Below the pieces are notes generated by a model. The model made no database searches, was not told the origin of the DNA, and was given only the letters and a program-made list of their open reading frames with translations. This document shows positions 8,793-25,575 of a stretch of 36,685 nucleotides of DNA, in pieces. Source of the stretch: an uncultured Sulfolobales archaeon (lineage in GTDB: Archaea; Thermoproteota; Thermoprotei_A; Sulfolobales; NBVN01); NCBI GenBank assembly GCA_938045815.1, contig CALIBI010000055.1, positions 1-36,685 of the forward strand. The letters run 5' to 3'. Numbering within the stretch: position 1 is the first letter of the stretch; the number at the start of each line of letters is the position of its first letter. The position numbers and the translations under genes were made by a program.

Positions 8793-9443
8793 ATGTCGTC
8801 TCCCACATCTTGTCTCGAGGATACATTCATTGATGGAGATGTAATTCTTTTGAGACCTGCTATACGTAGGTTTGTTATAGAAGCGAAAACTACACGCAGT
8901 GTTGACGGCTACCTAATACTTCTTGGAGGACTTGTTTTCGAGATCGAAGAATTTAAAGGTTCCCGAGTGTTTAGCTATGATCCGCGAGAAATCCTCAGAA
9001 AAGTGCTCTCGTGCGTTGAGGTCGCTGAGGCGTTAAGCCCGCTCACAGACTACGTAGAGGTTGTTAAGTACCTCGTGAATTCAAGTCCTCGACACAAGTT
9101 ACTTAGACCGTACCTAGACCTCATCACCGAGTTCCTCAGTACGGTGCCTCCATCCGAGAGGAGACTCGTGACTATTAGACCTTCACTAGACGAATTAGAC
9201 AGAATCCCTAGCGAAGAACCTGAGCTAAGAACTGAACCTGAGTTAAGAACCAGTAATACGTACCACATACCTGTTGAAGTTACGAGACCCAGCACTCTGG
9301 AGGAGGGTTGGGGGGACGTAATTAAGAAAGTCTTAGGGTACACTCTACTGATTATCGTCTCAGCTGGAATCATCTACTTCAGTTATGCGTTGCTAGTTAA
9401 GTATGGATTAATAGAACCCCTAGCACAGATTCCACTCCCGTAG
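8793..9443 (+). CDS. unknown protein with C-terminal membrane anchor
   Basis: I do not recognise this 216-residue protein. Residues 1-110 look like a mixed alpha/beta cytoplasmic domain. Residues about 140-152 contain a near-perfect tandem repeat, EPELRT twice, copied at DNA level (around 9220-9250). A single hydrophobic helix (LGYTLLIIVSAGIIYFSYALLV, about 184-205) is followed by a short polar tail, as in a tail-anchored protein. Its stop is followed directly by the Shine-Dalgarno GGTGGAG of the CAP-domain gene, so the two are cotranscribed and their products may meet at the membrane. The annotated start may not be exact. Confidence 0.7.
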   Translation: MSSPTSCLEDTFIDGDVILLRPAIRRFVIEAKTTRSVDGYLILLGGLVFEIEEFKGSRVFSYDPREILRKVLSCVEVAEALSPLTDYVEVVKYLVNSSPRHKLLRPYLDLITEFLSTVPPSERRLVTIRPSLDELDRIPSEEPELRTEPELRTSNTYHIPVEVTRPSTLEEGWGDVIKKVLGYTLLIIVSAGIIYFSYALLVKYGLIEPLAQIPLP

Positions 9444-9452
9444 GTGGAGACC

Positions 9453-10484
9453 ATGAATAAACTCTCAAGGGCTAACGTAGCAGCTTTAATAATTCTCGTA
9501 CTGTTAGCACTAGCTTATTACTTTCCCTACACACCACACACGATTTACGTAAGCACTAATACAAGTACTAGCGCTTCAGCACCTCCCACATACACAACTC
9601 ATACGAGCACCTCACCGACGCATACGACCCGTATAAGCATCTCAGTATTGATCAGCGCGACACTTAATAAAATCAACGAAGAAAGACAGAAATTCGGGGT
9701 TCCGCCTGTGAGATTCTTTAACGACACCACCGCGAGATTCAGAGCAGAAGACATGTACAACAACAAGTATTTCGGACATTGCGATTTAAACGGGATGCCA
9801 CCGAACTACCACTACACGAGGCTAGGCGGGAACTACGTAACCGAAGAAAACGCGGGGTATACTTACTCAGTGGGTTGGAATTTAATTCCTACCAGTGCTG
9901 CTGTAAGACACGTAGAAAACATGATATATGATGACGCTGATAGTAATTGGGGACATCGTGACTCAATTTTGGATCCTACAAACAATTTCGTAAGCATCTA
10001 CGCTACCTGGGACAACAACAGATTCTTCCTAGTCATACACATGATGAAGATCTGGGTAACGTGGATAAAAACACCAACAATAAAAGACGCGGTCTTCACT
10101 GCTGAAGGCATAATACTCTTAAATAACTCTAAGTTAGATGACATCATAGTTTATTACTCAAGTCCCAATAAGTCAAGAACTTTTGATTTGAGTTTAAACA
10201 TTATTACGACTTGCGAAACATACTCAGTAGGGGAACCAATAGCTGGTGTAGTACCGGAACCATACTATTACTCGGAAATCCAAACAATCCGTCCTCTGAA
10301 GTGGGTGGTTTCTGAGCAGTACTTCAGTGTTGAGTTCCCAATCAACTTTACAAGTAAGAGAGGCTTGTACACGATAGTAATTTGGGTAGAGAATACGCTC
10401 CACACTAAGCACCCGTTCGTCAAAGAAAGATACAGTGATTACTTACCGATACTCATGTACACTTTCTTTGCGGGAAGTAGCTGA
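9453..10484 (+). CDS. membrane-anchored CAP/SCP-domain extracellular protein
   Basis: This protein of about 343 residues starts at ATG 9453, chosen because GGTGGAG lies just upstream. An N-terminal hydrophobic helix (about residues 8-25) is followed by a Thr/Ser-rich, probably glycosylated linker (about 30-65). A CAP domain then runs from about 70 to 200: LNKINEERQKFG opening helix, AEDMYNNKYFGHCD, EENAGY and NWGHRDSILDP, supplying the two His and the Glu typical of CAP pockets. The remaining 140 residues form a beta-rich region I cannot assign. CAP proteins act outside the cell in binding or hydrolysis, so a surface role is likely. N-glycosylation sequons (N-x-S/T) are frequent. It is cotranscribed with the upstream tail-anchored protein. 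Confidence 0.75.
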   Translation: MNKLSRANVAALIILVLLALAYYFPYTPHTIYVSTNTSTSASAPPTYTTHTSTSPTHTTRISISVLISATLNKINEERQKFGVPPVRFFNDTTARFRAEDMYNNKYFGHCDLNGMPPNYHYTRLGGNYVTEENAGYTYSVGWNLIPTSAAVRHVENMIYDDADSNWGHRDSILDPTNNFVSIYATWDNNRFFLVIHMMKIWVTWIKTPTIKDAVFTAEGIILLNNSKLDDIIVYYSSPNKSRTFDLSLNIITTCETYSVGEPIAGVVPEPYYYSEIQTIRPLKWVVSEQYFSVEFPINFTSKRGLYTIVIWVENTLHTKHPFVKERYSDYLPILMYTFFAGSS

Positions 10485-23365: not shown

Positions 23366-23845
23366 TTATATGGTTTCAGCGTACTTCCTGGCTTTCCTGT
23401 ATGTTCCTGTGATTCTCTCAGGACATACTTGATTAAGTACGTTCTTCCTCTCCAGGTATGCTAGAGCCAGCAGCACGCCCCACCTGTAATGACTCCTAAC
23501 TCTGATTATTGCTTTCGATGTTTTCTCGCTGAAGTACAGGATTTTAGGGGAGGCTTCTGAGTAGTTCTTCTTGCCGTAAAGTTCTATGAATGCTTCACTG
23601 AGTTGTTCCTGCAGCTCATTAAGGCTTGTGTTCCCCTGAGTAACTAGTCTTACTACCAGATACCTGTTTTTGTGCTTCCTACGTCTCTCAATACTCTTAA
23701 CAACTTGCTTCAAGATTCTTGAGTCTAGACTGATTAACGCGTTCTTGACCTTACGCCTAAGAAGTACTAACTGGTGTAGGGTGACTATAGCGAGAACTAG
23801 AGCTGACGTAGCGATTACGATGAAGAATACCTCAAGTAACTCCAT
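23366..23845 (-). CDS. rnp2: RNase P protein component 2 (Pop5) with N-terminal membrane helix
   Basis: Residues about 55-159 match archaeal Pop5: RYLVVRLVTQGNTSLNELQEQLSEAF, KILYFSEKTSKAIIRVRSHYRW and the C-terminal RITGTYRKAR. With Rpp30 it activates the RNase P RNA that trims tRNA 5' ends. Unusually, residues 1-34 form a hydrophobic helix (FFIVIATSALVLAIVTLHQLVLL) closed by RRKVK, like a membrane anchor, before a linker and the core. ATG 23845 overlaps the Rpp30 stop by 14 bases and is preceded by GGGGGG. A TTG at codon 45 could instead start a normal-length Pop5, but no Shine-Dalgarno precedes it. The order L15e, RNA-binding protein, Rpp30, Pop5 is the classic archaeal operon. Confidence 0.85.
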   Translation of the reverse strand: MELLEVFFIVIATSALVLAIVTLHQLVLLRRKVKNALISLDSRILKQVVKSIERRRKHKNRYLVVRLVTQGNTSLNELQEQLSEAFIELYGKKNYSEASPKILYFSEKTSKAIIRVRSHYRWGVLLALAYLERKNVLNQVCPERITGTYRKARKYAETI

Positions 23846-24449
23846 CGAAACCAGCCCCCCTAAGTATTGATGCGGGGTTCGCGGTAAGCGCTGATAAAGC
23901 TTTAGCTTCAGAAAGACCTAACTCTAGCAGGAGCGCGTAGTATGTGAGTGGGTGGTGAACCTCACTCAAGTTACGCGCTCCACTACCTAAAGCTACCGTG
24001 ATTCGACCTCTCTCATAGAAACTCAGGAGTGCTTGGAGTCCTGAAATATCCTTCCCCGAAATTATGAGGTCCATTATCTCTGACGCGTTAAGTATTACGG
24101 GCTTCCTCACGTTAACCAACTTCACGAAACTCTTCCTAGACCTACTATCAGTCAGTAACTTACCCCCAATCTCCACAGCGTTCAGGATCCTTAAAACCTG
24201 ATTACTCAGCTTGAGTTCTTCAGGAGTTCTCGCCAAAAACACCTTGAGGGACTTACTCTTAACTACATGATAACCGCTCCCGGAATCTACGAGTGTGCTA
24301 GGAATCAACCTAACGTTACTCAGTGTTTCGGTGGTAGGTAGGTCTCGCAAGACTATGGTGGAGTACGCGTAAGCACGTGCTTTCTCGACTAACTGATTAA
24401 GCATAAAGTGAGGGACCTTACTACTAACGTCTACGTACTTAAGCCGCAC
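23832..24449 (-). CDS. rnp3: RNase P protein component 3 (Rpp30)
   Basis: This 205-residue PHP-type TIM-barrel-like protein is a subunit of archaeal RNase P that pairs with Pop5. It has family features LVSSGARN-like GSGARNLSEVHHPLTYYALLLELGL near the C-terminus and the end motif ALTANPASILR. The N-terminal half is divergent. The start is GTG 24449, overlapping the upstream RNA-binding gene by 19 bases, and its stop lies inside the Pop5 start, so all are coupled in one operon. Confidence 0.87.
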   Translation of the reverse strand: MRLKYVDVSSKVPHFMLNQLVEKARAYAYSTIVLRDLPTTETLSNVRLIPSTLVDSGSGYHVVKSKSLKVFLARTPEELKLSNQVLRILNAVEIGGKLLTDSRSRKSFVKLVNVRKPVILNASEIMDLIISGKDISGLQALLSFYERGRITVALGSGARNLSEVHHPLTYYALLLELGLSEAKALSALTANPASILRGAGFDGVT

Positions 24450-24901
24450 TCCTCAAACACCCTCATCAAGCATTCGTGTAAGTCTCTCAAACTCCTAACC
24501 CCAACCAAAGTAGCTGAGACCTTAATCACGTCATCCCCGTCCATCAGCATGATCTTCCCTGAGAAAGCGTCCTGCTTACTAAGCCTCAAGTAAATTATGG
24601 AGTTTTTTGAGCCGACACGCCTCCCTAACGTAGCGGTGAGGAGAGACCTATCCGTAACGTTTAGTGAGCACAAGATATGCCTAAACACGCTGTCCTCATC
24701 TCTTCTGTCCTTAAACCTCACATTGATTAGTGTTATGGGGTTCCCGTAATGCCCCTGAACCACTTGCTCCTCCATCAACGCTTTCTCTCTCAGTTGCTGG
24801 GGGAGAACATTCAGTACTGCCTGCCTAACCCTACCTAAGTCTTCAGTACTGTGCGCGAAAACACTTAAAACAATGTTGCTTGCTACTCGCTGCTTACTCA
24901 T
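24431..24901 (-). CDS. COG1325-type RNA-binding protein, predicted exosome-associated
   Basis: This 156-residue protein is of the archaeal DUF54/COG1325 RNA-binding family, proposed as an accessory exosome subunit on the basis of conserved neighbourhood. Typical features are the opening FAHSTEDLGRVRQAVLNVLP, QVVQGHYGNPITLINVRF (about 44-61) and the LRLSKQDAFSGKIML segment. It is expected to act with RNA processing enzymes. It lies two bases after L15e and overlaps Rpp30 by 19 bases, the usual archaeal order. Direct function is not proven for the family. Confidence 0.88.
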   Translation of the reverse strand: MSKQRVASNIVLSVFAHSTEDLGRVRQAVLNVLPQQLREKALMEEQVVQGHYGNPITLINVRFKDRRDEDSVFRHILCSLNVTDRSLLTATLGRRVGSKNSIIYLRLSKQDAFSGKIMLMDGDDVIKVSATLVGVRSLRDLHECLMRVFEECGLST

Positions 24902-24903
24902 GA

Positions 24904-25575
24904 TTACTTCTCAAGACCTAACTCCTTAGCTTTGTCTTGAGGTAGTATTAACCTAGCACCTCTTGAAGCCTCGTGCCTCTTCCTCAACTTCCTCTCTTTC
25001 GCTTTCTTCTTCCACTTCCAGTGGTGGGTTCCTCTAACACCTCTATTACCTAAAAGACCTCTCATCCTCCTCCCAGCCATCGTCTTCCCTCTAAACACTC
25101 TACCTCTCTGCGACCGAGACGTTACCCAGTTTATGTCTGGGTCTGAGATTATTGCTGGGTGGTTAGGGTCTACCAGTATAACCTCAAAATACTCGTAGAC
25201 TCCGTCATCACCAACCCAGTAAGAACCAAGAACTTCTAGGTTGCGGAACTTCCTAGCAGCTTTCTCCTCAGCAATCAGTTGTTGCGGTTTCTCCGGCGCG
25301 TAACCGTAAACACCCATCCTCTTAGGTCTACGTCCTGAGTTAGGTCTAGGCTTGCTTAAACCCCCCTTCTTAACCCTAACCCTCGCAACAACAAAACCTT
25401 GCTTAGCTTCATAACCTATGGCTCTAGCTCTATCGAGTCTCGTAGGCTTCTCAATCCTTACTACCGTGGGAGCTCTCCTCCACTCTATGTAGCGCTCCCT
25501 CATCAACTCCTTCATAGGGCTGGAATCAAGATCTCTCCACGCCTCAGCAATATAGTCGTACACAGATTTCACCAT
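24904..25575 (-). CDS. rpl15e: 50S ribosomal protein L15e
   Basis: This 223-residue basic ribosomal protein has the full L15e pattern: [51 protein letters not shown], the [18 protein letters not shown] block (about 133-150), and [20 protein letters not shown], with a basic tail. It is the first gene of the RNase P operon. TATA-like CTTTTAAAC (25610-25618) lies about 35-43 bases upstream of ATG 25575. Confidence 0.97.

Follow-up and report, generated by a model that had tools for sequence, protein, structure and literature searches.

A predicted membrane-anchor helix at the N-terminus of the RNase P protein Pop5 in a Sulfolobales archaeon and its relatives

RNase P trims the 5' end of tRNAs. 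It is a near-universal, intensely studied ribozyme and is treated as soluble in archaea. Its protein subunit Pop5 has a hydrophobic N-terminal extension in an uncultured Sulfolobales archaeon (contig CALIBI010000055.1 of GCA_938045815.1), which raises the question of whether the extension is a genuine part of the protein and whether it could hold the enzyme at the membrane. The window is the whole stretch of DNA that was analysed, positions 1 to 36,685 of the contig (36,685 nucleotides). The pop5 gene has the following features, in which KD19 is the KD mean of a 19-residue window.

23366..23845, minus strand: pop5 (RNase P protein component 2) with N-terminal extension, 159 aa, stop codon within the span; PF01900 (E=5e-12) and PDB Pop5 sequence and fold matches.
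23759..23839, minus strand: predicted transmembrane signal-anchor helix, residues about 3-29; KD19 of 2.71, moment of 0.07, helix in AlphaFold, hydrophobic in 142/147 loci.
23678..23758, minus strand: positively charged flank (RRKVK) and linker, residues 30-56, predicted to be cytosolic; sequence, order-wide C-flank charges, lower-confidence helix.
23384..23677, minus strand: Pop5 core domain, residues 57-154; profile match, Pfam match at 61-156, pLDDT 88-96.
23855..23860, minus strand: GGGGGG tract 9 nt 5' of the ATG, possible ribosome-binding site; sequence.
23711..23713, minus strand: TTG codon 45, the sole internal start suggested by the sequence-only reading; sequence, no Shine-Dalgarno-like motif upstream.

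The window protein belongs to the Pop5 family by all features tested; its stimulation of pre-tRNA cleavage is inferred. The 159-residue frame at 23366-23845 (-) opens with MELLEVFFIVIATSALVLAIVTLHQLVLLRRKVKNALISLDSRILKQVVKSIERRRKHKNRYLVVRLV. Residues 61-156 match the Pfam model RNase_P_Rpp14 (PF01900) over profile positions 1-103 of 104 (E=5e-12, 46.2 bits, cut-off 23), and the sequence matches the PDB Pop5 chains 2av5 and 2czv. The gene is single-copy in the genome. AlphaFold modelling of the window Pop5 and five relatives gives one long helix (residues 2-57) followed by a confident core, with a mean pLDDT of 86. In the window protein the pLDDT is 80-91 over residues 1-30 and 88-96 in the core; the helix beyond residue 30 is of lower confidence. 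The top Foldseek matches of the modelled protein are exclusively Pop5 structures (E 4e-7). Soluble archaeal Pop5/Rnp2 (PF01900; PDB 2czv, 2av5, 3wz0, 6k0a) has the same core fold, family and Rpp30 operon partner and is likewise single-copy, but the window protein is longer at its N-terminus by about 50 residues, which include a predicted transmembrane helix. The solved archaeal Pop5 chains are 120-134 aa long and align to the core from near their own N-terminus. The new element is the anchor; the Pop5 family itself is known.

A transmembrane-type helix at the Pop5 N-terminus is well supported, in the absence of a dedicated membrane-helix predictor or localisation data. The top 19-residue window of the protein, LLEVFFIVIATSALVLAIV, has a KD mean of 2.71 and a hydrophobic moment of 0.07, and the moment is low across the order (median 0.09). 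Leu, Ile, Ala and Val make up about 71% of the residues of this window in the Pop5 proteins of the order, and it contains no charged residue in 102 of 144 and one in 41 of 144. Pooled pN/pS among close relatives is 0.45 for the helix, 0.33 for the linker and 0.24 for the core. Replacements in the helix to polar or charged residues or Pro number 4 of 129, compared with 29.6 expected from single-base changes. Since the helix sequence drifts while polar replacements stay few, selection acts on hydrophobicity and not on a particular sequence. The Eisenberg scale gives 0.39 for the window Pop5 and a median of 0.35 for the order, exceeding 0.42 in 28 of 144; this value is a strict indicator of a membrane helix, not a defining requirement. 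Many helices of the order are merely moderately hydrophobic on this scale, which counts against the membrane reading. AlphaFold is uninformative about membranes.

The charges flanking the helix are one-sided. The N-tail has a mean of 3.2 residues, counted from the nearest upstream start, with 0.02 K+R and 0.48 D+E, and the C-flank (the 12 residues past the helix) has 3.45 K+R and 0.69 D+E order-wide. The C-flank is more positive than the N-tail in 136 of 142 cases. Under the positive-inside rule, membrane helices are oriented by their flanking charge. Because the positive charge is on the C-flank, the topology is predicted to be N-out/C-in with the Pop5 core in the cytosol. The sequence-only reading had claimed a hydrophobic N-terminal extension with a positive-inside pattern, ending in RRKVK and leading through a charged linker to an intact core, and each of these claims held. 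Its claim that the first 34 residues are hydrophobic held only in part, as the hydrophobic part spans residues 3-29 or so and contains E5, H24 and Q25.

The hydrophobic N-terminus extends across the order. When 147 genomes of the order were searched, 125 yielded a Pop5, and most matches reached into the hydrophobic N-terminus. The order set comprises 147 Pop5 loci from 11 families, including Metallosphaera and Aramenus, with further members added by profile. With KD19 >= 1.6 as the criterion, the N-terminus is hydrophobic in 142 of these 147 loci, and the core is preceded by a median of 57 residues. Other long ORFs from the same loci, taken as a control, have hydrophobic N-termini in 7% of cases. 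Named carriers of the helix are Metallosphaera yellowstonensis, M. javensis and Candidatus Aramenus sulfurataquae. An alignment restricted to Sulfolobaceae yielded five named loci, and a scan of genome contigs with the window protein as sole query gave no match. A helix unconserved in close relatives would have refuted the sequence-only reading; it is kept in the genus, the family and the whole order. The order-wide extent, the absence outside the clade and the single loss had all been overlooked.

The exceptions within the order are of three kinds. Two loci are borderline and Ala/Gly-rich (L105 and L107, KD19 of 1.31 and 1.44), and a third (L071) is truncated by the contig end. In L082 and L099, from two genomes of one genus (g12, family f4), the anchor is absent and the Rpp30 frame reaches the Pop5 core. 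These two loci represent a real loss of the anchor, which looks like a deletion of the DNA that encodes the helix. Since one genus lost it, the anchor is not essential for RNase P, and this genus would offer a natural experiment on anchor function.

Outside the order, 66 Pop5 loci from other families of the phylum have a median of 9 residues before the core; these proteins start at the core and have no anchor. The single hydrophobic case among the 66 has an ATG directly before the core. More distant members of the class and the phylum lack the anchor as well. In three sister families (L186, L187, L188), which belong to the same class but not to the order, the core is preceded by about 88 residues that contain two hydrophobic stretches, and all three families are hydrophobic at the N-terminus. 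Since there are two helices in these proteins, a cytosolic core requires the N-terminus to be inside. The N-tail of L188 is acidic, a poor fit to that expectation. On a tree of the Pop5 core the anchor trait needs two changes, compared with about 29 on average for shuffled labels. The tree rests on few columns, its forks are weakly resolved and its root is not fixed. One gain and one loss is the simplest reading of the two changes.

Two side observations concern the wider set. In family f7 (L074, L078, L084, L105, L107, L114), helix and core are separated by a linker that is longer by about 25-30 residues and looks heptad-like; it may be a coiled coil, consistent with a paired anchor. Six nearly complete genomes of families f18 and f24 of the same phylum (G190, G198, G205, G196, G203, G210) gave no Pop5 by a broad profile, and one relative, G212, has a marginal 80-residue Pop5 candidate. 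Whether the f18 and f24 genomes represent minimal RNase P lineages is no more than a possibility.

The pop5 gene lies in a codirectional group in which L15e, the PF01877 gene and rpp30 lie upstream and neighbours overlap or abut.

23832..24449, minus strand: rpp30 (RNase P protein component 3), divergent, 205 aa; 14 nt overlap with pop5, profile match to PDB 1v77.
24431..24901, minus strand: PF01877 RNA-binding protein gene, same operon; Pfam E=1e-31.
24904..25575, minus strand: ribosomal protein L15e, upstream in the cluster; Pfam E=9.5e-77.

In Pyrococcus abyssi the rpp30 operon encodes the RNA-binding protein PAB1135 (PMC2872656), which is probably the counterpart of the window PF01877 protein, although no homology data are at hand. 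The identity of Rpp30 is supported by a profile built from the upstream neighbours of 15 order members, which matches the PDB Rpp30 1v77 (E=1.2e-9), and 9 of the 15 match PF01876 (best 6.7e-32). The window Rpp30 itself (23832-24449) is divergent and falls below the Pfam and NCBIfam cut-offs, whereas its relatives in the order score well. RNase P RNA (RF00373, 204 bits), Rpp29 and Rpp21 are encoded elsewhere in the genome. No helix comparable to that of Pop5 was found in Rpp30 (maximum KD19 of 1.16), Rpp29 or Rpp21 of this genome. Among the other tRNA enzymes of the genome that were examined, the tRNA splicing endonuclease and tRNase Z, no clear anchor was found; therefore, no wider set of anchored tRNA enzymes emerged. 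SecE, the intended single-helix positive control, was not found by its Pfam model.

A clade-specific signal-anchor that keeps RNase P tethered to the cytoplasmic membrane is the likely explanation. The sequence-level support for this reading is shown: the helix, its conservation, the charge pattern, purifying selection, clade restriction and the presence of the RNase P partners. Membrane insertion, attachment of the holoenzyme and any benefit are inferred. In the proposed mechanism, Pop5 would have gained the N-terminal signal-anchor helix once in the order. On insertion of the helix, the N-tail, which is very short and acidic or neutral, would face outwards and the Lys/Arg-rich flank inwards, and a linker of roughly 14-64 residues would connect the helix to the Pop5 core in the cytosol. 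The whole ribonucleoprotein, hence pre-tRNA 5' cleavage, would then be kept at the inner surface of the cytoplasmic membrane. Tethering of the holoenzyme is inferred from the lack of a second Pop5 copy and from the pairing of Pop5 with Rpp30 on the catalytic RNA. A (Pop5-Rpp30)2 tetramer lies at the centre of dimeric RNase P (PMC6565675), and an enzyme that is dimeric as in Methanocaldococcus would have two anchors. The benefit may be, for example, a membrane-side RNA-processing zone common to RNase P and the archaeal exosome. The sequence-only reading had proposed that RNase P is tethered to the membrane; this interpretation is supported, and physical attachment of the holoenzyme remains inferred. 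In a bolder version, the RNase P that matures tRNA 5' ends in the order and its sister families is permanently bound to the membrane, within a membrane-side RNA-processing zone shared with the exosome, the anchor having a single origin, fixation across eleven families and loss in one genus. This version could as easily be wrong as right.

Several other explanations can be weighed against the anchor. An annotation artefact, in which translation would really begin near the core, downstream of a frame that merely happens to be open, might be suspected since Pop5 elsewhere starts at the core, but it is practically ruled out. More than 140 loci keep the frame open and hydrophobic, pN/pS is below 1, and both other frames contain stops over the first 50 codons of the window pop5. 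The Rpp30 frame also ends ahead of the helix, at a median of 151 nt from the core, save in the two anchor-loss loci. The claims of the sequence-only reading that the frame is not due to chance and that the ATG overlaps the Rpp30 stop therefore held, the overlap being 14 nt; its G-rich ribosome-binding site held as the GGGGGG tract, whose function is only possible. Dual products are a less remote alternative that nevertheless seems unlikely. A long membrane form would be made along with a short soluble form from an internal start, and RNase P would be only partly anchored. At least one ATG, GTG or TTG lies between helix and core in 102 of 144 homologues, TTG codon 45 among them. However, no such codon is present in the other 42, no ATG is present in 100 of 144, and GTG and TTG codons are expected anyway within a Leu/Val-rich stretch. 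The absence of a Shine-Dalgarno-like motif before TTG codon 45 also argues against this model, and a start at that codon, which the sequence-only reading had named as its refutation, is not supported. Since 42 of 144 homologues have no internal start, a short soluble form cannot be general; it remains conceivable in some species.

The hydrophobic stretch at the N-terminus could also suggest a cleaved signal peptide that exports Pop5. This can be all but dismissed, as the positive charges follow the hydrophobic segment and do not precede it, and an RNA-binding RNase P subunit has no export role. The charge pattern favours an uncleaved, membrane-retained protein with a cytosolic core. The helix might instead pack inside a soluble holoenzyme, for example in a Pop5-Pop5 or Pop5-Rpp30 bundle, and stabilise it against heat without entering the membrane. 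Most members are probably thermophiles, the tetramer is central in the dimeric enzyme (PMC6565675), and the long heptad-like linker of some families (L105, L074) would fit. Nevertheless, soluble packing is very improbable. The segment is uniformly apolar with a very low moment and is not amphipathic, the positive flank is constantly on one side, and residues drift freely among hydrophobics. Pop5 outside the clade has no such helix, and no complementary helix was found in Rpp30, Rpp29 or Rpp21. Gene fusion, together with a chance frame and a signal peptide, was rejected on charge pattern, conservation and reading frame.

The membrane-anchor reading has partial parallels in known systems. The RNase E degradosome of E. 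coli (PMC9848016) is likewise an RNA-processing nuclease complex held at the inner membrane face by a membrane-targeting element, and RNase Y is another membrane-attached bacterial RNA-processing enzyme. These proteins are unrelated to Pop5; in the present case it is an accessory protein that bears the anchor, and the enzyme concerned is the archaeal RNase P ribozyme. Membrane fractions of E. coli reportedly contain RNase P (Miczak 1991, cited in PMC2789413), and to our knowledge no anchor is known for it. The exosome of Sulfolobus solfataricus has been described as membrane-located (Roppelt 2010, cited in PMC7613921). It is an example, from the same order, of RNA being processed at the membrane, but the enzyme is different and no shared anchor was shown in this analysis. 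A prior description of a Pop5 membrane helix or N-terminal extension was not found in the open-access literature searched, which leaves out most subscription papers; nor was a paper on RNase P with Sulfolobus and buoyant density found there. Single database entries may already have been flagged automatically with a membrane helix.

If the anchor is real, tRNA processing would be spatially organised at the membrane in an order that contains laboratory models. Recombinant Pop5 of the order would be expected to misbehave unless truncated, and the native enzyme to need detergent. The question is directly testable in genetically tractable Sulfolobaceae.

The window also has two adjoining genes with hydrophobic segments. 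The 216-residue protein at 8793-9443 (+) has such a segment near its C-terminus, and the 346-residue protein at 9444-10484 (+) has a hydrophobic N-terminus followed by a Thr/Ser-rich stretch; membrane attachment or export is likely.
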